In this document: piece by piece, positions 36,209-50,261 of the stretch
How the letters are laid out: every line of letters begins with the position of its first letter
How positions within the stretch are numbered: position 1 is the first letter of the stretch
Origin: Oxalobacteraceae bacterium OTU3CAMAD1
GTDB lineage: Bacteria; Pseudomonadota; Gammaproteobacteria; Burkholderiales; Burkholderiaceae_D
Assembly: GCA_024123915.1 (NCBI GenBank)
Contig: CP099650.1
Span: forward strand, 372,001-436,000
Direction: 5' to 3'
DNA: 64,000 nucleotides
Notes under the pieces: generated by a model
The model's database searches: none
Seen by the model: only the letters and a program-made list of their open reading frames with translations
What the model was told of the DNA's origin: nothing
Translations under genes and position numbers: made by a program

Positions 36209-37078
36209 TCAACGGGCTGGAATGGCGGAGTTCGACAGCATGGTATCGGCGATATCCAGCAGCGCCCGCAGGCGATCCATATGCCGCAGGTCATGGTGGT
36301 AACCTACCCAGATATCCCTGCCCGGCGGCGGCTCGGGTGTCTCGATGCACTGTAACCCTGGTGTCGCATCGCCAAGTGGCCTCGGCAGGACTGCCACACC
36401 CATACCTTGCGCGCACATACGTGCCTGGACCGCGCGGCTGGTGCTGGTGAAGACACGCCGCGACAGCGGGAACCGATCAAGCAGCCAGGCGACATCGGGA
36501 AAGTGCGACTGCGCCGAATTCATGAGAATGAGTCCGACCGAAGCCGGATCCGTTTGCATCGCGCGCGCGGATTCGTCCGAACCGTAGAGGCCGTACGGAA
36601 TGCTCATCAGGCGGCGCTGAACGATGTCCGGTTCCGTGAAGGGCACAATACGGAAGGCCACATCGGCCTCGCGACGCGACAGATCGAGCAGCCGGTAGCT
36701 GGCGATCACCTCGGGCACGATAGCTGGATAGCGGCGCGTCAATTCAGCCAGCACCGGCGCCAGAACATAGCCGGCAAACCACTCCGCCGAAGATATCCTT
36801 AGCACGCCTTCGAGGCGTTCGTGGTTGCCCGCCAACCGTCGTTCCATGGCCAGTCCGGAATTTTCCATGGATTCCGCCAGCGCCAGCACCGCGTCCCCGG
36901 TGTCCGTCAGTACCAGCCCATCCTTGGTCCTGCGGAAGAGCGCCTGCTCCGCCTCGTCTTCGAGCGCCTTGATCCGCCGACCCACGGTCGGATGACTTAC
37001 CCCCAGTCTGCGGGCCGCCTCGCCCAGAGAACCTGAGCGGACCACCGCCAAGAAAATTCGGACGTCGCTCCATTCCAT
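36209..37078 (-). CDS. LysR-family transcriptional regulator
   Basis: This 289-aa protein begins MEWSDVRIFLAVVRSGSLGE, with the HTH core AARRLGVSHPTVGRRIKALE and a substrate-binding domain (about 88-285). It is divergent from the SnoaL-like/DHA2 pair (37222 onward) and upstream of ridA-amidase on the same strand, so it could control either. The start at 37078 is the usual LysR beginning; the frame extends to 37177 without similarity. Confidence 0.88.
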   Translation of the reverse strand: MEWSDVRIFLAVVRSGSLGEAARRLGVSHPTVGRRIKALEDEAEQALFRRTKDGLVLTDTGDAVLALAESMENSGLAMERRLAGNHERLEGVLRISSAEWFAGYVLAPVLAELTRRYPAIVPEVIASYRLLDLSRREADVAFRIVPFTEPDIVQRRLMSIPYGLYGSDESARAMQTDPASVGLILMNSAQSHFPDVAWLLDRFPLSRRVFTSTSRAVQARMCAQGMGVAVLPRPLGDATPGLQCIETPEPPPGRDIWVGYHHDLRHMDRLRALLDIADTMLSNSAIPAR

Positions 37079-37221
37079 GTGTAAAAACCCGTTCAAAAAT
37101 GTACGCCGAATATACAGGAATGGCAGTTCACCGACAAATCTGTTTGCAGCATCATGGCGCCTATCGAGCTGGCCCATGCTGGGTCGGCATTTTCAAATGC
37201 TATTCCACAAGGAGATTTCCC

Positions 37222-37695
37222 ATGTCAAAAGAACTTGAGGCGCGCCTGGACGCCATCGAAAGCCGTTTCGCCATCGATGCACTCATCGCCAATTACGCGG
37301 AAGCGTTCGACACAATGAACATGGCCCTGCTAGCCACCCTTTGGCACCCCGACTCGCGGTTATTGCTTGGACAGAACGGCAACTCCGAGGGCCTGGAGGC
37401 CATCCTGGCACAGGCCGAAGTCAACATGAAACGCATGCCGCACATGCACCACTGGATGGCCAACGCGCTGATTACCGTGGAAGGCGATCGCGCCCATGGA
37501 ACGGTAGCGGCGGACTGCATTTTCTACGACGTCGACCAAGGCCCGTTGCAGGTAAGCGGTCAGTACAAGGATATCTATGATCGGCGGGACGGCCGCTGGG
37601 CATTCGTCGAGCGCAGGTTCACGATGCACTATGCAACGCCACTGAAAGATTGGGCCCCGGTCGCGGGCACGGAGCGCTTCGGTCTGCCGGCATGA
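37222..37695 (+). CDS. SnoaL-like / NTF2-fold protein
   Basis: This 157-aa protein shows the SnoaL_4-type pattern: an N-terminal helix pair (ESRFAIDALIANYAEAFD), TLWHPDSRLLLG, MHHWMANALITVEGDRA and a final DRRDGRWAFVERRF strand. Such cone-shaped folds serve as small isomerases, hydratases or ligand binders. AAGGAG lies seven bases before the ATG. Its stop overlaps the ATG of the DHA2 pump gene (ATGA). Substrate unknown; the pairing suggests a role with the compound exported by the pump. Confidence 0.75.
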   Translation: MSKELEARLDAIESRFAIDALIANYAEAFDTMNMALLATLWHPDSRLLLGQNGNSEGLEAILAQAEVNMKRMPHMHHWMANALITVEGDRAHGTVAADCIFYDVDQGPLQVSGQYKDIYDRRDGRWAFVERRFTMHYATPLKDWAPVAGTERFGLPA

Positions 37696-39128
37696 CCCGC
37701 GCGTTCTCCACTAAAAACATGCACACGACGACGTCCGCCGCCCGCCGCTGGTTGGCATTTGCGGTGTTACTGGTGGGGGCATTTTTGCCTCCACTGGACT
37801 TTTTCATCGTGAACGTCGCCCTGCCGTCCATCCAGGGTTCGCTTCACGCCAGCGCTGCGGAACTACAACTGGTTATTTCCGGATACGCCTCGGCCTACGC
37901 GGTCTTCCTCATCACCGGTGGCCGGCTCGGTGACCTGTTCGGTCGACGCAAGATCTTCCTGATTGGCATCAGCGGCTTCGGACTGACCTCGGTATTGTGC
38001 GGTCTGGCCACTTCACCGGCCTTGCTGATCGTCGGTCGTATCCTTCAAGGCCTGAGTTCGGCCGCCATGGCGCCACAAGGCCTGGCGTCGATTCACGCGC
38101 TGTTTCCGGAGCACGAGCGTGCACGCGCGCTGGGACTGTACGGCGCCGCTGTCGGACTGGCAGCTGTGGCCGCGCAAGCGCTCGGCGGTGCCTTGATCAC
38201 CACAAACTTCTTTCACCTGGAATGGCGCATTATTTTTCTGATTAACCTGCCGGTGGTCGCTGCCGTGCTCATTTTCGGCTTCCCACTGCTGCCTGACGTA
38301 CGCGGCGATCACCCGGCGCCGCTCGACAAAATCGGGGCGCTGCTGTGTGCTTTCACGCTCGCCTTGTTGATTGTTCCGCTGGTCGAGGGACGGGAGTTGG
38401 GTTGGCCGTGGTGGACCTGCGCGATGCTCATCGCGTCCCCTCTCGCTGGCGTTTGCTTCTGGGAATACGAAAAGGCCTATGCCCGTCGGGGCGGGGTCCC
38501 GCTCGTCAGCGTTGAGCTGGTCAACTTGCCCGGGCTGATGAGTGGCCTCATAGGCGTTCTCTTCTTCTATGTCGTCTCTGCCTTTTTCCTGGTCTTCTCC
38601 GTTTATCTTCAATCGGCAATCGGGCTGAGTCCTCTGGAAACGGGGTTGGTCTTTCTGCCCTTCGGCATAGGCGCCTTCATTGGCCCGCTGACGACGCCGC
38701 TGGCCATCCGCGTTGTCGGGAGGTTCGTTCCCGCCATCGGCATGATGCTCGAAGTCGCCGGCTGCGTGATCCTGGCCGTCATCGTGGCTTGCGCGCCTGG
38801 CCGAATGCCCGCCCATATTCCGCTGGTCATTGCAGTCGGGTTATTGGGCTTCGGTCAGGGATGGGCGCTGCCAACGCTCGTGCGCGCTGTCATCAATCGG
38901 GCGCCGCCGACCGGTTCCGGAATGATTGCCGGCATAACGAACTCAGCCTTGCAGATCAGCGCGGCGCTTGGCGTCGCGGTGATGGGGGGCATCTTCTTCA
39001 CCGTGGCAGGGGCGTCGCCCGATTCGGTCTCGATGGCCGACGCGTTAGCCGCCGCCATGCTGTGCGTGGCCGCCAGTCTCTCCATCTCTGCGGTCTTTTC
39101 CATCGTGGCGTCCAGACCGGGGCGATAG
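37692..39128 (+). CDS. MFS drug-efflux transporter, DHA2 (EmrB/QacA) type
   Basis: This 478-aa protein has 13-14 predicted membrane helices and DHA2 motifs: LDFFIVNVALPSIQ in helix 1, GGRLGDLFGRRKIF (motif A) and the GAAVGLAAVAAQALGGAL-type motif C. It should export hydrophobic or cationic compounds with H+ antiport. It overlaps the SnoaL-like gene by four bases. A divergent LysR regulator upstream is the likely controller. No EmrA-like adaptor is encoded, so it probably acts alone in the inner membrane. Confidence 0.88.
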   Translation: MTRAFSTKNMHTTTSAARRWLAFAVLLVGAFLPPLDFFIVNVALPSIQGSLHASAAELQLVISGYASAYAVFLITGGRLGDLFGRRKIFLIGISGFGLTSVLCGLATSPALLIVGRILQGLSSAAMAPQGLASIHALFPEHERARALGLYGAAVGLAAVAAQALGGALITTNFFHLEWRIIFLINLPVVAAVLIFGFPLLPDVRGDHPAPLDKIGALLCAFTLALLIVPLVEGRELGWPWWTCAMLIASPLAGVCFWEYEKAYARRGGVPLVSVELVNLPGLMSGLIGVLFFYVVSAFFLVFSVYLQSAIGLSPLETGLVFLPFGIGAFIGPLTTPLAIRVVGRFVPAIGMMLEVAGCVILAVIVACAPGRMPAHIPLVIAVGLLGFGQGWALPTLVRAVINRAPPTGSGMIAGITNSALQISAALGVAVMGGIFFTVAGASPDSVSMADALAAAMLCVAASLSISAVFSIVASRPGR

Positions 39129-39168
39129 ATAATGTTGCCATTCGCCCCCGTGAAGCGGGGGTTGGCGG

Positions 39169-40134
39169 TCAGTAATCCCAGATCACCGGCACCCAACGGA
39201 AGGCATCGCCGTCGACGGCCACTCGGCTGACGGAGGGGAACGGCAAGTGGGAGGCCACCAGCAGCCCGCCGTTCTCCGCCAGTTCCCGGAACAGGCCGAT
39301 CCGAACGCGAGCCGCCTCCTCCGGGTCGTGTTCGAAGCCGTTTTGCCACTCCGGATGCTCGAACCCGACCGGGAACATGGCGTCGCCGGCAAACATCAGC
39401 CGTTCACCATCGGATTCAAGGTCGACCACGCTGTGGCCGGGTGTGTGGCCGCCGGTGAGACGCACAACCACTCCCGGCGCGACTTCGTACGTGTCGTCGA
39501 AAATCCGAATTCGGTCGCGGTATTCATCATGGAAGCTGGCGGCCGTTGAGCGCAGCACGTCCGGCACGGGCTTCGGCATATCCGTGTGGGAGAAATCGGG
39601 CGACGTCCAGAACTTGACCTCGGCGGCGGCCACGTGGATGCGCACGTCAGGACGCAGCCGGTTTTTCACGTCATCGACGAGCATCCCGCCGACGTGGTCC
39701 ATGTGCATGTGGGTAATGATCACGTCGGTCACGGATTCCAGGCTGATGCCGGCGGCCTCCAGGCGCTGCGGAAACTGCCCGGCGCGCGGGAAGCCCGGGA
39801 ACTGACCTCCCAACCCCGCGTCGATGAGGATGGTCTGGTCGCCGCTGCGCACCACCATCACGTTCAACGGCCAGTCGAACGTCTGTTGCGGCATGAAATG
39901 ATCGTCCAGCCAGATTGCCAGGTCGGCTTCGGCGACATTGGTGGCCATCGTCGCTGTGGGTAACGGCAGCACCCCGTCGCTGATGACCAGCACGTCCAGC
40001 TTGCCGAGCTTTAGCGCATAACGCGACGGCACCAGCTCCTGTGGAGCATTGATTAAACCCATGTCGGTATGCGTATCGCGTTTGATCGGGCTCTTTTTTG
40101 TTGGCGCCTGAATATTGCTGACCATTTGATTCAT
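39169..40134 (-). CDS. MBL-fold metallo-hydrolase
   Basis: This 321-aa enzyme has the metallo-beta-lactamase site HMHMDH (H142, H144, D146, H147), GHTPGHS as the next ligand loop and FAGD as the bridging Asp. Its overall layout is that of lactonase/aryldialkylphosphatase-like hydrolases; the PLNVMVVR...LIDAGLG front part is typical. The ATG at 40134 is preferred to that at 40140 because AGGAG directly abuts the latter. It follows the FAD oxidoreductase gene on the same strand. Substrate unknown. Confidence 0.82.
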   Translation of the reverse strand: MNQMVSNIQAPTKKSPIKRDTHTDMGLINAPQELVPSRYALKLGKLDVLVISDGVLPLPTATMATNVAEADLAIWLDDHFMPQQTFDWPLNVMVVRSGDQTILIDAGLGGQFPGFPRAGQFPQRLEAAGISLESVTDVIITHMHMDHVGGMLVDDVKNRLRPDVRIHVAAAEVKFWTSPDFSHTDMPKPVPDVLRSTAASFHDEYRDRIRIFDDTYEVAPGVVVRLTGGHTPGHSVVDLESDGERLMFAGDAMFPVGFEHPEWQNGFEHDPEEAARVRIGLFRELAENGGLLVASHLPFPSVSRVAVDGDAFRWVPVIWDY

Positions 40135-40206
40135 GTTCATCTCCTGTGAATGTTGCGAATGGTTTGATACGTGTTGAAACGAGCTCCGCTAATGCGGGCG
40201 ACAGGT

Positions 40207-41412
40207 TCAGAGGTCGGTGACCCGCTCCGGATCGGCCGACGCCAGCGCGGCGGCGCGCTCGGCCTTTGGTGGATAGATCCAGACGGTATTGATCTCCCGC
40301 TTCGTCTTCTTGGCAACCTCGCCGACCATCTCCACCTTGCGGTCCCAGCCGCGCGTGAACAGCGCACCAGCTTCGCCGAGGTCCAGACAGGTGACGTAGG
40401 CCTTCTGGTGGTAGGGTTTGGTCGGCACGCCGAGCAACTCGGCCGCGGCGTTATTGCCGGCAAAAGCGCCCATCCGAGTGGCGTGCTGGCAGGACATCAA
40501 TGCATAGTTACCTTCGTCGTCGCAGGCGGCGCGGGCGGCGTCGCCGGTGGCGAAGACGCTTGGAACACCCGGCACGCGCAGGTCGCGATCGACCAGCAGC
40601 CGTCCGGAATTGTCGCGTTCGGCGGTGATGTGCTCGGTCAGCGGGGCGGCGCGAATGCCGGCCGCCCAAATGACGGTCTCGGTCCCTATGTGTTCGCCGC
40701 TGGACAAGGTGACGCCCGATTTGTCGAGCGAGGCGACGCCGACGCCGAGGCGGGTTTCCACGCCGAGCTTGCGCAGCGCGTCGTCGATGACGGGGCGGGA
40801 ATCGGGGCCCATGTCGGGTGCGATCGCATTGTTGCGGTCGACGATGATGACGCGGGTCTGGACATCGTTGCCGAGGATGCCGCGCAGCCGCGCCGGGATT
40901 TCAGTCGCCGCCTCGATGCCGGTGAAGCCGCCGCCGACCACAACGACCGTGTTGCGCCCGTTCGTGGCGGGACGCCCGGCCAGGCCGTGCAGGTGCTTGT
41001 CTAGGGCGACCGCGTCGTCGAGCGAATCGACGCTGAAGCTGTGCTCGGCGAGACCGGGTATGTTCGGACGAAACAGCCGGCTACCCGAAGCGACGACCAA
41101 GCGGTCGTAGGAGAGCGACTTGCGTCCCCCTTCCCGGGTCGCGATGCCTACGGTGCGGGAGCTGGCGTCGATCGTCTCGGCACTGCCTTGCACATACACA
41201 ACGTCGGTGGCATTGAACACCTCCAACAGCGATGCGGTGAGGGTTTCGGGATTTGGTTCGTAGAGCCGGGGGCGGACCACCAGCGTCGGTTCTGGAGAGA
41301 CCAGCGCGATTTCCAGTTCCTCCGGTGTAACGCCCCGGATATCGCGCAGGCGGGCGGCGGAAAGCGCGGCGTACATGCCGGCGAAGCCGGCCCCTATGAT
41401 GACGAGTCGCAT
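40207..41412 (-). CDS. NDH-2-like FAD-dependent pyridine nucleotide oxidoreductase
   Basis: This 401-aa flavoprotein has two Rossmann dinucleotide sites (IIGAGFAGMYAA at the N-terminus; VVVGGGFTGIEAA in the middle) and the late FAD phrase SVFATGDAA. It resembles type II NADH dehydrogenases and related quinone reductases but has no clear C-terminal membrane anchor. The start at 41412 has AAGGAG eight bases upstream; the frame extends eleven codons further up. It sits between the AraC regulator and the MBL hydrolase on one strand, so the three may form an operon. Confidence 0.82.
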   Translation of the reverse strand: MRLVIIGAGFAGMYAALSAARLRDIRGVTPEELEIALVSPEPTLVVRPRLYEPNPETLTASLLEVFNATDVVYVQGSAETIDASSRTVGIATREGGRKSLSYDRLVVASGSRLFRPNIPGLAEHSFSVDSLDDAVALDKHLHGLAGRPATNGRNTVVVVGGGFTGIEAATEIPARLRGILGNDVQTRVIIVDRNNAIAPDMGPDSRPVIDDALRKLGVETRLGVGVASLDKSGVTLSSGEHIGTETVIWAAGIRAAPLTEHITAERDNSGRLLVDRDLRVPGVPSVFATGDAARAACDDEGNYALMSCQHATRMGAFAGNNAAAELLGVPTKPYHQKAYVTCLDLGEAGALFTRGWDRKVEMVGEVAKKTKREINTVWIYPPKAERAAALASADPERVTDL

Positions 41413-41508
41413 GTGACTTACTCCTTTGGTGATGGGCACAGCCATAATGTAGCTAGCCGCGCACGCGAGCGCTCCATCGCGATTGACCTGATTGCAGCGC
41501 GATTGCTG

Positions 41509-42441
41509 CTAACGCGCGCGCCGACGCCATTCGCTCGGCGTTTCGCCGGTGAGCTTGCGAAACCCGGCGGCAAAGGCGGTTTGCGAGGCATAGCCCAGCG
41601 CCGCCGCGACCGACATGACGGATGCGTCGGTGTCGCGCAGCATGGTCATGGCTTGCTCGAGCCGGTGCTGGCGCAGCCACGCATGCGGCGCAAGCCCGGT
41701 GCTTTCCTTGAAGGCGCGACAGAAGTGAAACCGCGACAGGCCGGCCTCGGCTGCGAGCGCCGCGAGCGAAACGTCGGCGTCGCTGTCCGAACGCAGGCGT
41801 TCGATCGCGCGAAGCAGGGCCTTGGGCGCCAGCCCGCCCCTGGTCGGCTGTAGCGTTGCCGGCGAGCCGATGTGCGCGGCCAGCAGACGCGTGGCCAGCA
41901 GGTCGATCAGTTGCTGCCTGAACAGCGTATCAAGTGCCTCATTGCCTTCCAGGAAATCGGACACGCTCAAGAGCAAGCGCGAGGTGATGGGATCGGGCTG
42001 CGCGGTGCGCTCGAGCAGTTCGACCGGAGCGGCGATCCCGGCCTCGTTGGCGATGCGCGCGAGCGATGAATGCGGAAGATAGAGCGTAACAATATCGACA
42101 GGTTTCGGGATATCCCATCGGGAGCTGGAGGCTTGCGGAATGATGATCACCGTCCCGGGGCGAAGCGTTCCAATCGCCGTCGATCTTCCCGACCGGCGTT
42201 GCATGCGCTGCACGGTGCCGTTGTAAGCCATGATGACGTGGTGGATCATGGGTCCGACGACGTCGTGCAACGGATCATGTTTCCAATGGGCGATTCCGGC
42301 GCCGGACTGGTCCAAGGTGATGCGCAATGGCGTGGTTGCGAGCACACGCGCCATCTCCTTGTCGGCGGGACGGGCATCGGCAATTGGCAAGTCGCTCTCG
42401 CGCGCCTCGAAATAATCGCGTGAGATCGGTGAGGTTTTCAT
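41509..42441 (-). CDS. AraC-family transcriptional regulator (AraC_binding_2-like sensor)
   Basis: This 310-aa regulator has an N-terminal cupin-like sensor (about 30-180; RPGTVIIIPQASSSRWDI region) and an AraC HTH domain (about 205-305) with LAALAAEAGLSRFHFCRAFK and VAAALGYASQTAFAAGFRK helices. It lies immediately upstream, on the same strand, of the oxidoreductase and hydrolase genes and probably controls them. The final RRRAR tail is common in this group. Confidence 0.86.
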   Translation of the reverse strand: MKTSPISRDYFEARESDLPIADARPADKEMARVLATTPLRITLDQSGAGIAHWKHDPLHDVVGPMIHHVIMAYNGTVQRMQRRSGRSTAIGTLRPGTVIIIPQASSSRWDIPKPVDIVTLYLPHSSLARIANEAGIAAPVELLERTAQPDPITSRLLLSVSDFLEGNEALDTLFRQQLIDLLATRLLAAHIGSPATLQPTRGGLAPKALLRAIERLRSDSDADVSLAALAAEAGLSRFHFCRAFKESTGLAPHAWLRQHRLEQAMTMLRDTDASVMSVAAALGYASQTAFAAGFRKLTGETPSEWRRRAR

Positions 42442-42547
42442 GCTTCGGGCCTGTCAGGGTAATGGGAGACGCCCCGTGCGTCTCCCATACCTTTAAGACG
42501 GCAGCCGCGACCGGTTTGTGACAGGTTGCCGGTCTATCTTGTTCGGC

Positions 42548-42584
42548 AAAAAAACGCCAACCGGTTGAATGGGTTGGCGTTTTT
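42548..42584. terminator. Strong bidirectional Rho-independent terminator
   Basis: A run of A leads into ACGCCAACC, an eight- to nine-base loop, then GGTTGGCGT and a T run. Both strands therefore show a GC-rich stem followed by T residues. On the minus strand it would end transcripts coming from the 344-aa gene. Confidence 0.8.
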
Positions 42585-42777
42585 ACGAAACACTCAGCCT
42601 TGACTTGAAACAATAAAGTTGGTCGAGATTGCCGAATGCGATGAACAGCAGCCCGAAAAAGAAGTCACTTTTTTTAACCTCATCTAGCTCATAGGCTCAG
42701 ACGCCGAACCCAACGACGACCTGCAACGATCACTGCAGTTCTGCCGCGCTCGATTGCTGGAAGCGGAAAGTGGTCAT
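42583..42777 (-). other. 64-codon frame with two in-frame TGA codons (speculative)
   Basis: A minus-strand ATG at 42777 with AAGGA eight bases upstream opens MTTFRFQQSSAAELQ. It then meets TGA (42732-42730), ten codons on another TGA (42699-42697), and continues 37 codons, including the segment AYELDEVKKSDFFFGLLFIA, to a TAA (42585) that touches the terminator stem. It may be a 15-residue peptide followed by untranslated RNA, a decayed small gene, or a TGA-recoded frame. No selenocysteine gene is in the window to support the last. Confidence 0.2.
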
Positions 42778-42910
42778 GGGGTCGATCCTTCAGCTGTGGG
42801 TGAATGGCGGGCGCCATCCCAATGATGGCGCTACCAACCGACATGATCAATGATCCGTAAGGAACGCCGCCTGTCGGTTGCGCGGCAGGCGGCCGCTTCG
42901 TACGGGTTCG

Positions 42911-43945
42911 CTACGACGGCGGATTGTAGGTATTCAGTTGCCCCCAGTAGGTCAGGCTCTGGCAGTAGCCGTTCGACACGTTCGAATCCGAACCGGTGCA
43001 TCCGAACCGCGGCACGCAACTCAGAACCTGGATCGGCATGTCCGCCGCGATGGTGCCGCTCACCGCCGGGTATTGCGCCGCGATGTCGGCGCCCGCCAGC
43101 GCCGCGAAGTAGCTCGTGTACGACCCGGTATACCATACCCGTGGCTGTACTTCCTCGGGCACGTCCAAGCCCTGCTTGATGGCGGCGTTGATGCAACTGT
43201 CCACATCGAACGTCTCGTCCAGCGCCATCAACATGATCCATAAGTTGAACAGGAACCAAGTGGCGGCCGCCGTGCTGTCGCCGCCTTGTGCGACCAATGT
43301 GTTGATATTGGCGGTAAACGTTCCGTTCACGATGGCGCTTTGCAATACCAGCGCCGTGGCAGGCCCCGCGTTGGACGCGCCGATCGCATCCAGCGCTGCC
43401 TGGGTGGGCGGATAGCCGTCAATGAAAGTAGCCAGATAAGTCGCCGACAACCAGTCCTGCAACTGGCCGTTATAGGTCGCGAGGTCCGTGGTGAGCTGGT
43501 TGACGTTGACCTGTGCCGCGCCCGCTTGGTTGATTTGGTCTGTTAATGTCGCCAAACAAAATGTTCCCCACCAGCTCGAATTCATTGCCGGGTTGACCTG
43601 CTGCACCGCTTGCAGGATCGCCGCCGCCGTCGCGGATTGTGCGATGCCATTGAAGAAGGCGTCGTTGTAGCCGTTGTAGTTGCCCTGGTAGCTGTAACTG
43701 GTCGAATCGAGCCCATCCCATTGGGTTGGCTGTTGGGCGACCGGATCGTTCGGCAGCGACGTGACCAGCAGGTTGACGATCCCGCCCCGATGCGCATTTT
43801 GCCAGTCCATGGACCCGTAATAGGGCATCGCATCGATCAAGGTCGTCAGCGGGTCGGTATTCCCCCCGGCCGGAGCGACCAGCGGCACGATGCCATTCAG
43901 GGACGCGGCAAGCTGTGCCTGGAGCTGCTGGAAACCGGTACTCAT
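42911..43945 (-). CDS. Unrecognised 344-aa protein, second gene of a coupled pair
   Basis: No family is recognised. The protein has no signal peptide. It is rich in Asn, Gln, Ala, Thr and aromatic residues (YSYQGNYNGYNDAFFNG), with a central helical part (about 115-225), a hydrophobic segment AATWFLFNLWIMLMALDE (about 230-247) and a C-terminal part with several Cys (SCVPRFGCTGSD and NGYCQS). The ATG overlaps the TGA of the 1278-aa gene (ATGA), with AAGGAA six bases upstream inside that gene, so both proteins are made together. It may be the partner or accessory component of the large protein. Composition differs from its core-gene neighbours. Confidence 0.75.
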   Translation of the reverse strand: MSTGFQQLQAQLAASLNGIVPLVAPAGGNTDPLTTLIDAMPYYGSMDWQNAHRGGIVNLLVTSLPNDPVAQQPTQWDGLDSTSYSYQGNYNGYNDAFFNGIAQSATAAAILQAVQQVNPAMNSSWWGTFCLATLTDQINQAGAAQVNVNQLTTDLATYNGQLQDWLSATYLATFIDGYPPTQAALDAIGASNAGPATALVLQSAIVNGTFTANINTLVAQGGDSTAAATWFLFNLWIMLMALDETFDVDSCINAAIKQGLDVPEEVQPRVWYTGSYTSYFAALAGADIAAQYPAVSGTIAADMPIQVLSCVPRFGCTGSDSNVSNGYCQSLTYWGQLNTYNPPS

Positions 43946-46900
43946 GACAGTTCCTTCGCGGCGGCGACGACGATCTGGAAGGACGTCGTCGCGTTGCCCA
44001 ATGCATTCGATACCGCCAGCGAGAACGCGGCGTTGAACGCCGTCGCGACCGTTCCATTCGGCGAAAACGTGCAGGTGTCGCTGTCGAAATTCAGGAACGG
44101 CGGCAGCGTCCCGGTGAGAACGAAGGTCAGCTTCGGACTGGGCATGACGCTGAAACTCGGGGAGAACGCCTCGTTCTGCGACGGTTTATCGTTCACCGGG
44201 AGACAGATATCCTTCATTATGATGTACGAGGACGACGGGGCGATACCGGACATGGTGAGCGTGAACTGCGCGCCCGCCGCTGTCGAATAGCCCAGGCTAC
44301 TACCCGAAGCCGCCAGCCAGCCTGTCGCCCCCGCCGCGCTGTAATTGCCGGCACTGTCCGGAACGACCGGTTGCAACATCAACTGCAGGGTGGCCAGGTT
44401 CTGTCCATCTGGCGCCAGCGCCGCATTGCCGACCGGACTGGACAGCCATTTTTGCGTGGTCACCGTGACGCTGCCACCGGCAACCGTCGCCGTTCCCGTG
44501 GGCGTCCCGGGCATGAACACGACCGTGTCGTCGCTGAGCAGCGTCAGGCACAGCGGGACGACCGAATTCGAGCCGCTGTACGAGACCTTGGCAAAAATGC
44601 CTGACAAGCCCTGGCTGTCCGTCTGGGTGAAGAACACCCATCCCGGAAGCGTGCTCGACGTGCCGCTGGCGATCGTGCCGTCCGCATTGCAGCCATAGAA
44701 GCTTCCATTGAGGCTGAGCGTGAATCCAAGCAGCGTCAAACCGTCAACCGTGTACGGGATCACGTAATCGATGCTGCTCGCCCTTGCCGCGACCGTCAGC
44801 CCCGCGGGCTGGGCGTAGTCGTTGACAAATTCCTGCACCGGGTCGGGCGGTTTCTGGAACATTTCGTAGAGCGCAAGCGCGATACCGGCCACGGCCGCGA
44901 CGATCGCCAGGGGACCGGCCACGGAACAGATGCCGGCGATCACGCCGCCCTCGACCGCGAAGGCGCCGGCCATGGCGATCAGCGTCAGGCAGCCCGCAGC
45001 GATATTGAGCCCATCCATCGCCTTGCTGATGGTGCTCTCCCCCTCCACAAGGTTGTAGATGCTGAAACTGATCCCGGCCAGGATGAGAATTGGGCCGAGG
45101 CGCGCGGCGATGAATTCGTCCAGATTCCTGCCCAGGATGCGGGCAGCCACCGAGACCTCGGCGGCGACGTCGGCGTCGGCGTCGCCGATCATCATCATTT
45201 CCGTGATCGCCGGATCTTGCGTCAATCCGATCGATCCTTTCGTGTCTCCCAGCCATCTTGCCGCGCTGTTACCGATGCGTGCCAAGGCAGTGTCCAGGAC
45301 ATCCGCTTCGCCGCTGTTGAGGATATTGGCGATGGCGCCCGCACGCTGGCCCACGGACAGGCCCTCGGCGCCGAAGATCGCATAGATCCGCACGCCCCGT
45401 TTGACGATCGCGCCGACGATCTGCAAACCTAGCTGCACGGCATTGGTGATCAGCTCCGCCTTTTCGGCATCGCTCATCTTGTCCCAGCTCTTGAACGCCA
45501 TGATCATCTGATAGGCGCTGAGCCCGGCGAGACCGGTGAACAGCAGCGATCCGAAGACGGAAGCCACCTTGGAAAACTGTGGATACGCGGCGATAAACTT
45601 CGGCAGGAATCCATTCGCAATACTCGGCAGCGACATCACGTCCTGGAACGCACTCGCAAGATCGTTGATGATATCGAGGCTGTGTTTCAGGATACTGTCG
45701 AAATCGCTGTCGTTGATCAGCGTTTGCAGTTCGGCCGCCGCGGCCTGGATTTGTGCGTCCTCGTTCGCAATGTTCTGGTTGACGAAGGTCTGGAGATATT
45801 CCTTGATGATCGAAAAGGTATTCGGATCGGCATTGAATCCGAACATCGACGGCAGAACGTTGGTTGCCAGGAAGACGTTCAGCGTTTGCGTGTACCGCTT
45901 CGCAAACACACCGGAAGGGTCGAGTGCCGTCAGCACCGCCGCGTTGAGCTGGAATAGCCTCGGCAATGCGGTCGCATCGCCGTTACCGCTGCCCGGGCTC
46001 ATTTGCAGCGCGATATTGGCGAGTATGGAAGGCGCCGTATTGTAGGTGTAGTAGTAGAACGCCCAGTACAGGTTGTTTGTCGTGGCGTAGGTCTGCGCAT
46101 CCGTGACATCGTCGATCAGGTTTTGGATCAACTGCGGATTCGTCGGATCGGGAACGACGTTCGCATTGATGTCGGCGATGGCCGCGGCCGCCACCTGATT
46201 GATGATCGGGGTGTACGTCGCGCTATTGCTTTGCTGATCGCCGAGATAATCGTTTATCGACGGGAACAGCTGCTGCCAGTGATATTGGAACAGGAGTTGT
46301 CCATGCGTGTAATACACCTTCGACGCCGCAACCTGTTCTTTCAGCCACGTTGCCGCGCGCGGCCCGTTCAGATACTGGCAATTGCTGTCGTTGCCGCCCG
46401 CGAGACCCTGCGTCATGACCGCCGTGGCCAGCGACTGGTACCAGGCTGAAGGATTTGCAACGCCCGGCACGGGCGAATTGGCGATGATGGCCAGTTCGCC
46501 CTCGAGCGTCGGCTGGGTGGAATTCGGGAACAGAAGATTATAAATGTCCGGCGAAACGAAACTGTTCATGATCGTCTGTAAGTCCGCCGTCACCGCCTGC
46601 TGTACCTGATCGTACCAATTTCCCGCAGCGTTTTGCACATAGCAATTCATCGCCAACAGTCCCGAAATCGTCAGAGCGGGCGGCGTGTCCTTCAAGCTTT
46701 GCAATGTCGCGGGACAATATCTTGGGGAACGCGTCAAGGCAGCAAGCGCGGTGTTCGTATCGAGGCGTTCGCACGGTACGCCATCCGCCGTTTCGAGCGG
46801 CAACCCGGCATCGGAAAACCGCAACACCCCCGCCGCCGGCAATCCGGTCGCGGCTTGCACCTCGGGCGCTAGGCCGCTCCACCGCAATTCGTTCGCGCCG

Positions 46901-47778
46901 ACGCGGGCAGCACGCAGCACAAGATCGCCGACGACCATCTTGCCGTCGAAAACGCCGAACGGCACCGCCGCATCGTCACGCAGAAAATACCCGGTGATCA
47001 ACTGGTTGGCGCGGGCGCCGGCGATGCCGACCAAGGTGTCGGATGCCTGGCCGCTACTCGTGATATCGATCGCGCCCGTGATGGTCGCCGCAGCCAGGTC
47101 TTCGGTGGCCATCAACCAGTACGGGTAGACCGATGTGGGACCGGTGGCCGGCATACCGGTGTCCGACGGCGGGGACGTCACCGTCTTGAACGTCAGGTTC
47201 CATTCGTTCGTCAAACCGAGCGAGGCGGAAAATGCGCCAACCGCGGGTGTCCACGGCAGCGAACCCGTTTCGTTATCGTCGAATTCGAACGTGAAGACGG
47301 GCGGCTGCATCGGTCGGCCCGGCGCCTCGGTATACTTGAGCAGCAAACGGCCTTTTACCCAGCAAGCCTGCTGCCATTGCGTGCAAGTCGGATCCCACGC
47401 CATGCCCGAGATGGCCGAGCCGTCGGTCGTGAACACGACGCCAGCATCGAGCGCCACGTCGCACAGGAACTGGGCCGTCACGCTGGCCTGGACGGACACC
47501 ATGGCCATGTCCCGGGCAACGACGCCCACGCCGCCGGCACCGTCGTGCCTCAGATGCAGCTGGCCGCTGCCGAAGGCGCCGCTCCAGAGCAGTATCTTGT
47601 CGTGTTCGTCGTAGCGCCAGTTGCTTCTCGGGACGGGGACATGATCCAGAAACAGCTGCCCCTCCGGGATGCCGTGAACATTCGCGCTGCACAACGTCAA
47701 GGTCTTGGGAATCTCGAGGTCCGCATTTCCCGTCGCGTCCATTTTCGACATACTGAAGTGGTAAAAAAAGTCGTTCAT
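43942..47778 (-). CDS. Unrecognised 1278-aa multidomain protein with hydrophobic core and Ig-like end
   Basis: No family is recognised. Seen in order: a beta-rich N-terminal part (about 1-340), a long helical part rich in Asn/Gln/Tyr (about 350-740), an amphipathic/hydrophobic stretch (about 745-770), further helices, then hydrophobic segments at about 895-911 and 925-973 (Gly/Ala/Val/Ile-rich), a KPPDP break, a beta-rich region (about 990-1170) and a final Ig-like domain (PPFLNFDSDT ... ALGNATTSFQIVV) resembling bacterial He_PIG modules. No signal peptide is present. AAGGGGAG lies eight bases before the ATG. The long helical body with a hydrophobic hairpin-like core recalls large pore-forming toxins, but this is shape only. 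Confidence 0.8.
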   Translation of the reverse strand: MNDFFYHFSMSKMDATGNADLEIPKTLTLCSANVHGIPEGQLFLDHVPVPRSNWRYDEHDKILLWSGAFGSGQLHLRHDGAGGVGVVARDMAMVSVQASVTAQFLCDVALDAGVVFTTDGSAISGMAWDPTCTQWQQACWVKGRLLLKYTEAPGRPMQPPVFTFEFDDNETGSLPWTPAVGAFSASLGLTNEWNLTFKTVTSPPSDTGMPATGPTSVYPYWLMATEDLAAATITGAIDITSSGQASDTLVGIAGARANQLITGYFLRDDAAVPFGVFDGKMVVGDLVLRAARVGANELRWSGLAPEVQAATGLPAAGVLRFSDAGLPLETADGVPCERLDTNTALAALTRSPRYCPATLQSLKDTPPALTISGLLAMNCYVQNAAGNWYDQVQQAVTADLQTIMNSFVSPDIYNLLFPNSTQPTLEGELAIIANSPVPGVANPSAWYQSLATAVMTQGLAGGNDSNCQYLNGPRAATWLKEQVAASKVYYTHGQLLFQYHWQQLFPSINDYLGDQQSNSATYTPIINQVAAAAIADINANVVPDPTNPQLIQNLIDDVTDAQTYATTNNLYWAFYYYTYNTAPSILANIALQMSPGSGNGDATALPRLFQLNAAVLTALDPSGVFAKRYTQTLNVFLATNVLPSMFGFNADPNTFSIIKEYLQTFVNQNIANEDAQIQAAAAELQTLINDSDFDSILKHSLDIINDLASAFQDVMSLPSIANGFLPKFIAAYPQFSKVASVFGSLLFTGLAGLSAYQMIMAFKSWDKMSDAEKAELITNAVQLGLQIVGAIVKRGVRIYAIFGAEGLSVGQRAGAIANILNSGEADVLDTALARIGNSAARWLGDTKGSIGLTQDPAITEMMMIGDADADVAAEVSVAARILGRNLDEFIAARLGPILILAGISFSIYNLVEGESTISKAMDGLNIAAGCLTLIAMAGAFAVEGGVIAGICSVAGPLAIVAAVAGIALALYEMFQKPPDPVQEFVNDYAQPAGLTVAARASSIDYVIPYTVDGLTLLGFTLSLNGSFYGCNADGTIASGTSSTLPGWVFFTQTDSQGLSGIFAKVSYSGSNSVVPLCLTLLSDDTVVFMPGTPTGTATVAGGSVTVTTQKWLSSPVGNAALAPDGQNLATLQLMLQPVVPDSAGNYSAAGATGWLAASGSSLGYSTAAGAQFTLTMSGIAPSSSYIIMKDICLPVNDKPSQNEAFSPSFSVMPSPKLTFVLTGTLPPFLNFDSDTCTFSPNGTVATAFNAAFSLAVSNALGNATTSFQIVVAAAKELS

Positions 47779-48431
47779 GTCTGTACTCCCCTTGTCATCG
47801 GTTTATCGGCGATCCCGGCCTGGCCACGGATCGTGAGCACGCGGAAGATCATCCGCATACAAGCAAGGGTAGATAGCGCTTGCCACGTAACACAAGTAAC
47901 AAGAGGGTAACTCAGCCTGGGTGGGAAGCAGGGCGGCGCACCGGCGCTGGGCGGCGGCGCCAGTACGTCGCCGCCGTCACGTGACGCTCGAGCGTGGTCG
48001 CACCACTGACGTCGTGCAGCCACCATCGACCAGCGGCACCGGCTTGCCCGGGCCATCCGTCAGCATGCCGACCGGCGAGACGACCGGGAACCGGGCGCTG
48101 AAGGCAGCTCCTGTAGGCCGCTCCATGCCCAAACTTGAGGCCGAGGTGACCGGAGCGAGATATCTTAGTACTTTGCGCCGCAGTCGCCGCCAAGTACGAG
48201 GTCATGGAGATCCTGTGCCGCGTCTTTAAAAAATTGGGGTTCGGGAGACCTTACGACAGGGTCGCGGCGTCCGCGAGAGCCTGGAGGAAGGGTCAATTCG
48301 AGAGGGCAATAAGCAAACGAACAGCATAAGGGTCGGTTCTAAATCTGACCACGCAAACGAAGACAATTACGGCGGCCAGAACTTGCGCTTCTATTAGCCG
48401 CCTACAAATATTAATGTCACGGACTCTGCGC
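47779..48431. other. Gap holding the promoter region of the large gene and a gene remnant
   Basis: No intact gene is visible in 653 bases. Near the large gene (about 47860-47910) the minus strand shows TTACTT, 18 bases, TATCTA as a weak promoter candidate, an inverted repeat GCAAG/CTTGC over it and the direct repeat GTAAC-ACAA-GTAAC. The middle holds a patatin-like remnant (47977-48190). The part next to glmS is lower in G+C and unexplained. Confidence 0.45.
47977..48190 (-). pseudogene. Remnant of a patatin-like phospholipase/hydrolase C-terminus
   Basis: A minus-strand frame, open from about 48190 to a TGA at 47979-47977, encodes ...TGAAFSARFPVVSPVG, then a short loop and PLVDGGC. SARFPxVSPxG followed by VDGGY(F)DN is the C-terminal signature of patatin-like acyl hydrolases, in which the Asp of DGG is catalytic. 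After DGGC the frame loses the family pattern within ten codons, and no start, GxSxG nucleophile or oxyanion motif is found upstream. This is therefore a decayed fragment. An ATG at 48126 would give at most a 49-residue product. Confidence 0.5.
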
Positions 48432-50261
48432 TTATTCCACCGTGACCGATTTAGCCAAATTCCTAGGCTTATCCACATCCGTGCCCCGCGCCAGCGCCGA
48501 GTGGTACGCCAGCAGCTGCAACGACACCACGTGCAGGATCGGCGACAGCAAACCATAGTGCTCCGGCAACCGGATCACGTGGATGCCTTCACCCGAGGTG
48601 ATGCGCGAATCGACGTCGGCGAACACATACAGCTGACCACCCCGCGCGCGTACTTCCTGCATGTTCGATTTCAGCTTCTCAATCAGCGCGTCGTTCGGCG
48701 CGATGGTGACGACCGGCATTTCCTCGGTGACCAGCGCCAGCGGGCCGTGCTTCAACTCCCCGGCTGGATACGCCTCGGCGTGGATATACGAAATCTCCTT
48801 GAGCTTGAGAGCGCCTTCGAGCGCGATCGGGTAGTGCATGCCGCGACCGAGGAACAACGCGTTTTCCTTGCGCGCGAAATCGTCGGCCCAGGCGATGATC
48901 AACGGCTCCAGCGCCAGCACGGCGGAGATGGCGACCGGCAGATGGCGCATCGCTTTCAGATGTCGCGCTTCCTCCTCGTCGGTGAGGCGGCCGTTGATTT
49001 GCGCCAGCGACAGCGTCAGCAGGAACAGCGCGGCCAGCTGGGTCGTGAAGGCCTTGGTCGAGGCGACGCCGACTTCCACGCCCGCACGCGTGATGTACGC
49101 CAGCTTGCATTCGCGCACCATGGCGCTGGTGGCGACGTTGCAGATGGTCAGCGTGTGCTCCATGCCGAGGCTGCGCGCGTGCTTGAGCGCGGCCAGGGTG
49201 TCGGCCGTTTCGCCGCTTTGCGAGATGGTGACGACCAGGGTGTTGGGATGCGGCACGCTGTCGCGGTAGCGGTATTCGCTGGCGATTTCGACGTTGACCG
49301 GGATCTTGGCGACGGATTCTATCCAGTATTTGGCGGTCAGGCCCGAGTAGTAGCTGGTGCCGCAGGCGAGGATGAGCACGCGGTCGATCTGCTTGAAGAC
49401 GTTGTAGGCGCCGTCGCCGAAGAGCTCCGGCATGATGCCGGTGACGCCTTCGAGCGTGTCGCCGATGACGCGCGGCTGCTCGAAGATTTCCTTTTGCATG
49501 TAGTGACGGTACGGACCCAGCTCGGCCGCGCCGGTGTGCGCGAGCACGGTTTTGACTTCGCGCTGCACCGGCTTGCCGTTGACGTCGACGATCCAGGTGC
49601 GGCCCAGTTGCAGGTCGACCACGTCGCCTTCTTCCAGGTAGATGATCTGGTCGGTGGTGCCGGCCAGCGCCATGGCGTCGGAGGCGACGAAGTTTTCGCC
49701 CTGGCCGATGCCGACGATCAGCGGCGAGCCCTGGCGGGCGGCGACTACGCGGTGCGGCTCTTCGCGGCTGAAGACGGCGATGGCGTAGGCGCCATGCAGG
49801 CGTTTGACGGCGTGCTGGACGGTGTCGAACAGGTCGCCGTTGTACATGTGGTCGACCAGGTGGGCGATCACTTCGGTGTCGGTCTGGCTTTGGAAGACGT
49901 AGCCGAGCGCGGTCAGTTCGGCGCGCAGTTCGTCGTGGTTTTCAATGATGCCGTTGTGGACCAGGGCGATGCGCGCCTGGTCGGCCGATGGCGAGAAGTG
50001 CGGGTGGGCGTTGTGCGAGGCGGGCGCGCCGTGCGTGGCCCAGCGCGTGTGGGCGATGCCGGTGAAGCCTTTCATGTGCGCTTCGTCGATCTGCTTTTCC
50101 AGGTCGGCCACGCGCGAGGTGCTGCGCGAGCGTTGCAGTTGGCCGTCGACGTGCAGGGCGACGCCGCAGGAGTCGTAGCCGCGGTATTCCAGGCGCTTGA
50201 GGCCTTCGATCAGGATCGGGGTGATGTTGCGTTGCGCTACCGCGCCGACGATGCCGCACAT
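48432..50261 (-). CDS. glmS: Glutamine-fructose-6-phosphate aminotransferase (isomerising)
   Basis: This 609-aa enzyme makes glucosamine-6-phosphate from fructose-6-phosphate and glutamine, the first step to UDP-GlcNAc for peptidoglycan and LPS. The N-terminal nucleophile Cys follows Met1 ([10 protein letters not shown]). The glutaminase domain (about 1-240) has HTRWATHG, and two SIS sugar-isomerase domains follow, with SQSGETADT (about 350) and the C-terminal [15 protein letters not shown]. Full length for the family. GAGG lies seven bases before the ATG. glmU, the later pathway gene, lies 1.1 kb away on the same strand. No glmS ribozyme or GlmY/GlmZ-type sites were recognised upstream. Confidence 0.97.

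Follow-up and report, generated by a model that had tools for sequence, protein, structure and literature searches.

What do the two adjacent genes behind glmS in Oxalobacteraceae bacterium OTU3CAMAD1 make, and do their products act together? The genes lie in a 64,000-nucleotide stretch of contig CP099650.1 (positions 372,001 to 436,000; called the window below, with coordinates counted from its first base). They encode a large protein of 1278 residues, here named BIG (gene 1), and a partner of 344 residues, SM (gene 2). The original prediction, made from the sequence alone, treated them as a coupled pair of unrecognised genes and guessed at a two-component toxin or membrane-active complex. 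Both open reading frames (ORFs), their ATGA overlap, the second gene's own ribosome-binding site inside the first gene and the strong terminator beside the pair are present as that prediction had described them (Table 1). The interpretation favoured here, with a probability of about 0.5, is that the two proteins form a horizontally spread, toxin-like complex that docks through a lectin domain and inserts into membranes, with SM as its second component.

BIG has full-length relatives in very different bacteria. A protein search returned 51 sequences including the query; the other 50 share 39-55% identity with it, 47 of them over at least 98% of its length, and their sources include Bacteroidota, Amycolatopsis, Planobispora, Umezawaea, Deinococcus, Pantoea and Albimonas. 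Scanning 84,980 species genomes with three peptide patterns, which yields a lower bound, located at least 16 BIG loci and added Methylococcaceae, Bradyrhizobium, Spirulina, Corallococcus, Pseudomonas, Microbulbifer, Magnetococcales and SAR324. Conservation over the full length supports both ORFs as genuine genes, and so does the ratio of nonsynonymous to synonymous substitution rates (dN/dS) in the related loci L007 and L009, which is 0.175 in the large protein and 0.32 in the SM-type N-domain.

Whether the two genes co-occur elsewhere, a point on which the original prediction had staked its case, can be answered directly. An SM relative adjoins BIG in all 18 loci with room for one: 14 of the 16 genome loci (L011 and L020, at contig ends, are excluded), both plasmid loci, the window and a distant locus in the same genus (G050). 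One of these contigs holds only the first 84 partner codons (L013), and L007 and L009 are near copies. The spacing, measured in 17 loci, runs from a 4-base overlap to 216 bases. In one relative (P0009), BIG, the SM domain and a Hint domain are fused in a single 2214-residue protein, and 14 of the 50 further BIG rows, among them the Pantoea row already counted, suggest a partner on a common contig. Divergence of BIG follows that of the SM domain, with r 0.94 for 26 pairs and r 0.85 for 22 core pairs, a value reached in none of 2000 permutations; 12 pairs in this comparison rest solely on an inferred common contig. No third gene is widely shared, since neighbour clusters recur in at most two loci apart from an MFS gene in three, although the ORF picking behind this clustering was rough and missed one known partner (L008). 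The module consists of two genes, whose products would form a complex. A Corallococcus locus (L015:3539-13774) has the order BIG, Hint partner, BIG, with two BIG copies and one partner.

The phylogenetic distribution of BIG is patchy. A tree built from 32 chosen rows places Deinococcus together with Pantoea (100/100) and unites the cyanobacterium Gloeothece with two Bacteroidota (93/97); its five actinobacterial rows make up one clade, and the window joins two other sequences. These groupings are in line with repeated horizontal transfer. BIG is found in 2 of 72,556 plasmid records, and SM-type partners in three, the third of which (Aeromonas caviae) matches over the Hint part only. Searches for a viral origin found no relative in viral contigs or in 50,697 phage records. 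Within the window's genus, 2 of 74 genomes have a BIG match, this one and G050, where the form is distant (about 22-26% identity). The pair at this G050 locus (L023:7302-13617) is highly diverged, and its second gene encodes a full Hint partner. In Gloeothece the pair shares a large plasmid with nearby type III-B CRISPR-associated genes (L021:19908-22863), and the plasmid pair of Pantoea sp. At-9b sits between a transposase and a tyrosine recombinase (L022:7875-17664).

The anatomy of BIG combines features that are familiar singly. BIG is an acidic protein, and its AlphaFold2 (AF2) model bears out the beta-rich head and long helical body that had been proposed. Hydropathy likewise confirms two hydrophobic segments, at residues 889-908 and 923-975, followed by a proline break at 977-980. 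The segments are also hydrophobic in the mean of the 48 aligned sequences (query included), and the helices that contain them, within residues 819-976, are conserved and rich in Gly and Ala. By sequence, residues 889-976 of BIG and of its relatives on average have the hydrophobic candidate insertion helices expected of alpha-pore-forming proteins. The Ig-like end also stands, if weakly: its match to He_PIG (E 0.0025) is below the Pfam cut-off, and the same profile exceeds the cut-off in one relative (P0042). A simple hydropathy test of the first 60 residues finds a signal-like hydrophobic segment in none of the 48 aligned sequences, a few of which are partial or differently started predictions, in agreement with the proposed lack of a signal peptide.

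The original prediction was right on this anatomy and overlooked the domain between the hydrophobic block and the Ig-like end. In the AF2 model, residues 998-1178 adopt a beta-trefoil fold. Its residues Q1109 and W1111 are invariant in 53 aligned rows and form a QxW motif, which is the ricin-B lectin motif and occurs up to three times in classical members of that family; BIG has one copy only. The trefoil is lectin-type in the model and a putative carbohydrate binder. The top Foldseek row for BIG as a whole is TbpB (E 2.8e-3, TM < 0.2), which is missing from the rows listed by VIA.

SM is best understood through its relatives. Of the 17 loci open to judgement (all but L013), 15 have a partner in which a Hint domain follows the SM domain; such partners are about 720-840 residues long where complete. 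This share was counted from loci, since the partner search with an 801-residue Hint-bearing query could return only proteins of about 440-1400 residues, and a search with SM itself (range about 190-600 residues) returned two. Five of nine Hint-bearing proteins scanned exceed the PF05203 or PF14623 cut-off, and a profile of the family matches the PI-SceI Hint domain with E 8.5e-10. All 66 aligned Hint-bearing rows have Cys1; the residue before it is Ser in 63 rows and Cys in the other 3. T/S-x-x-H is conserved as well (Thr in 64, Ser in 2, His in 66); one other letter in the His column is taken to be the Hint-less row L012. A splicing-intein junction of the form [HQ]N[CSTA], the one motif sought, occurs in none of the 66 rows at 100-190 residues past Cys1. 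With no such junction, N-cleavage rather than splicing is expected, and the natural reading is that Hint-bearing relatives cut themselves before Cys1.

The SM of the window ends in ...NTYNPPS, where relatives read, for example, NPPSSS|CFGKG or NPPPAS|CFGKG, which puts its end no more than about three residues from the expected cut. It lacks Hint altogether, its end preceding Cys1, and a Hint-bearing query matches the N-domain only, with no remnant in the 3' flank. A protein on another contig (P0003, also 344 residues and 95% identical) ends at the same residue. Further Hint-less partners, with slightly different end points, are P0004 and two tandem copies behind one BIG in Bradyrhizobium (L012:13853-15953; 75% identical to each other, dN/dS 0.63). 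Since L012 and the window are not sisters in the BIG tree, the Hint-less form probably arose more than once. Gene 2 thus appears to encode a naturally pre-cut version of a Hint protein. The original prediction, which had the two components, could not see this. One partner of 943 residues (P0082) has an extra segment in mid-N-domain and the precomputed domain PF18885.

The following sequence of events would account for these features. BIG, made without a signal peptide, would leave the cell through lysis or another route. Its C-terminal beta-trefoil and Ig-like domains would dock it on a target surface, and its Gly/Ala-rich hydrophobic helices could then enter the target membrane. SM, co-made by translational coupling, would bind BIG and might guard the hydrophobic region, travel as a passenger or act as a pore partner. 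In most relatives, Hint would free the SM-type N-domain by cutting before Cys1, while in the window SM is encoded already trimmed. The proposal of a two-component membrane-active complex gains weight from the trefoil that follows the hydrophobic block; toxicity and pore formation remain presumptive. Weighing against it is the low confidence of the model exactly where insertion is postulated, with a predicted local distance difference test (pLDDT) score below 50 at residues 819-904, 913-965 and 967-969. In the fold search for pore-forming families, most of residues 819-969 enter at this confidence and the trefoil fills the match list of BIG.

A broader claim is possible but doubtful: that the pair represents an undescribed class of bacterial two-component membrane-penetrating toxins, which horizontal transfer has carried into six or more phyla. 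In this class a Hedgehog-type Hint domain would mature the small subunit, perhaps with a modified C-terminus as the result, and natural pre-cut forms like that of the window would mark the released N-domain as the working part. If so, a widely shared machine, with no described member found, would join the two-component, lectin-docked systems. It would also provide a bacterial case of Hedgehog-like self-cutting that prepares the partner of a membrane-entering protein. Hint-bearing and pre-cut partners offer a natural contrast that makes the role of cleavage directly testable.

Neither protein matches a known family over its full length. Profile and structure-sequence searches reveal no strong similarity of the whole proteins to a known enzyme or structural family, which was the other result that would have refuted the original prediction. 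Pfam and NCBIfam scans of BIG and SM give nothing above curated cut-offs; besides He_PIG, the weak matches are Sigma54_CBD (E 0.21) and DUF5419 (E 0.12). PHROGs and PADLOC likewise give weak matches only (best PHROG E 0.047; SM to PADLOC PDC-S02, E 0.014). Sequence searches of the PDB with the single proteins return nothing convincing, and neither do searches with the SM model by Foldseek, by VIA or against a viral library, which does not show that its fold is new. Among the best-ranked papers of a literature search none describes the pair, and the accession and locus-tag terms tried occur in no paper; most subscription papers were outside its reach, and a published description may therefore still exist. 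The domains are of known kinds, their arrangement is new, and the pair is undescribed as far as could be found.

Several known systems share parts of this design. The modelled trefoil resembles the ricin-B-type modules of botulinum haemagglutinin, BinA, MTX holotoxin and Cry78Aa, but at 12-16% identity and without a Pfam lectin match, and no resemblance to these proteins is seen in the rest of BIG. Multi-component pore-forming toxins, whether ClyA-like two- or three-component systems or binary toxins, likewise have paired genes and hydrophobic helices in a soluble-looking protein. However, there is no sequence or convincing fold match to them, SM reaching AhlC and MakE only at Foldseek E of 2.1 or more. 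Hint, intein and Hedgehog proteins (PF05203, PF14623; PI-SceI) share Cys1 and T/S-x-x-H with the Hint-bearing partners, which match their profiles; in contrast, these partners have no intein-type HN/QN junction and the window's SM has no such domain. Polymorphic toxins with a pre-toxin Hint also place Hint within a presumed effector, but here the region after Hint is alignable across 13 proteins rather than variable, and no immunity-like gene is widely shared beside the pair. CCTX2, a fungal AB-like chimerolectin, resembles BIG by description in joining beta-trefoils to a domain of unknown function. It differs in having four trefoils in a single chain, and its homologues are called fungus-specific (PMC13324453).

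The location of the pair, which the original prediction did not recognise, fits with mobility. In this genus, the DNA that follows glmS has the look of a Tn7-type insertion hotspot. Among 23 relatives, 17 match the window up to the end of glmS and none beyond 48424, and the other six have no match in 38000-48500. The first 60 nucleotides behind glmS vary among relatives by eye. The motif A[AT]TAAAGT, repeats of which resemble Tn7 TnsB sites, lies within 100 nucleotides of glmS in 10 of 23 relatives and in none of 253 control windows further on. A 24-nucleotide glmS-proximal sequence from one relative (L029) occurs exactly once in the window, at the far side of the pair (Table 1). Some features speak against a simple Tn7 insertion. 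No repeat of the A[AT]TAAAGT type is present at the window's own glmS-proximal end, and no matching 5-base target duplication is seen by eye. Searches of its own genome for TnsA-N and TniQ gave no match, with controls that stayed silent too.

Comparison with the closest relative read (G018, glmS 99% identical) delimits the extra DNA. Homology to G018 resumes 1.6 kb behind its glmS at window position 36215 and continues in roughly the same order as far as the window's left end, so the window has about 12.2 kb extra (36.2-48.4 kb). The pair occupies the glmS-side half of this segment, and the Tn7-type end lies between the halves. None of 12 relatives read for about 20 kb behind glmS has BIG there. 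Besides G018, two match other parts of the window partially and nine lack any match over 150 bases.

Other explanations of the pair have to be weighed against a lectin-docked, membrane-inserting complex. The most resilient, if unlikely, is an AB-type delivery toxin in which BIG binds and translocates, and the freed N-domain (SM) is a cargo acting inside the target cell. BIG does combine a lectin fold with a hydrophobic region, and relatives have a separate small domain ahead of a self-cutting Hint. However, the N-domain has no catalytic-looking near-invariant residues. Lysine depletion, known from some toxin A chains, is mixed here: lysine density is lower in the N-domain than in Hint plus tail in 43 of 66 rows and that of lysine plus arginine in 63 of 66, but acidic residues (D+E) are sparser there too (65 of 66 rows), and only 6 of the 66 show a reduced lysine share K/(K+R). 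With composition evidence so mixed, the idea that a shortage of lysine in SM points to delivery into a eukaryotic cytosol was dropped.

A role outside intoxication, in which trefoil and Ig-like domains bind polysaccharide during surface or matrix assembly and Hint links or trims a surface subunit, seems quite unlikely. He_PIG and trefoil domains are common in surface proteins, and most named hosts are environmental bacteria. Yet the absence of signal-like segments in the hydropathy test, the conserved long hydrophobic block and the sparse, mobile distribution all speak against it. Very unlikely, too, is a cell-internal defence module that aborts infection by membrane damage. Defence cargo is frequent at Tn7 attachment sites, and the hydrophobic block, the missing secretion signal and the PDC-S02 match of SM would suit this role. 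The match is both weak and partial, however, the loci have no third gene widely in common, and a beta-trefoil would be odd in a cytosolic sensor. In five relatives scanned with PADLOC, moreover, the only matches are of the Hint part to a homing-endonuclease model. On a further view, which overlaps the other readings of BIG, the window's SM would be a truncated Hint protein that has degenerated and lost its function. This would explain the loss of Hint and tail here but is equally improbable given the clean 3' flank, the identical end of P0003 and the other Hint-less forms.

Table 1. Features of the BIG/SM locus in window coordinates
Feature	Position	Strand	Basis
Gene 1 (BIG), 1278 residues	43942..47778	-	ORF call; 50 relatives besides itself; alignment
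Gene 2 (SM), 344 residues	42911..43945	-	ORF call; corresponds to N-domain of a longer Hint-bearing protein in most relatives
ATGA stop/start overlap of genes 1 and 2	43942..43945	-	Sequence
Ribosome-binding site of gene 1, AAGGGGAG	47786..47793	-	Sequence; plausible
Ribosome-binding site of gene 2, GAAGGA, within gene 1	43952..43957	-	Sequence; plausible
Intrinsic terminator 3' of gene 2, hairpin and T-run	42545..42590	-	Folding: -18.4 kcal/mol, z -4.86
BIG residues 1-330, beta-rich head	46789..47778	-	AF2 model, 10-residue mean pLDDT mostly 80-93
BIG residues 341-818, helical body	45325..46758	-	AF2 model
BIG residues 819-976, helices, hydrophobic from 889; candidate membrane-inserting region	44851..45324	-	Hydropathy and AF2 model
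BIG residues 998-1178, predicted beta-trefoil with invariant Q1109-x-W1111	44245..44787	-	AF2 model, Foldseek/VIA fold search, alignment
BIG residues 1201-1271, Ig-like end (He_PIG)	43966..44178	-	Pfam profile match, below cut-off
glmS	48432..50261	-	Homology to relatives ends at or within 9 bases of its stop codon
Tn7-type element end, TGACTTGAAACAATAAAGTTGGTC	42601..42624	+	Points towards the pair; identical to L029 sequence 15 nt behind glmS stop codon

The terminator has a 9-base loop, which exceeds the loop limit of the pattern scan, and is therefore absent from that scan's list. The same scan lists no promoter-like site, and an Rfam search gave no match. The G+C content of 42600-48431 is 60.6%, slightly lower than the 63.2% of the window, a difference that alone does not demonstrate transfer. 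The neighbours of the pair are glmS on one side and, on the other, an ORF (41509-42441) that looks like a gene for an AraC-type regulator. The stretch 36215-42600, missing behind glmS in G018, contains regulators, a transporter-like ORF and a hydrolase-like ORF. Between glmS and the pair lies a short degenerate coding fragment (48195-48335) that resembles an ORF 3' of glmS in another relative (L033) and is perhaps a remnant of another insert.
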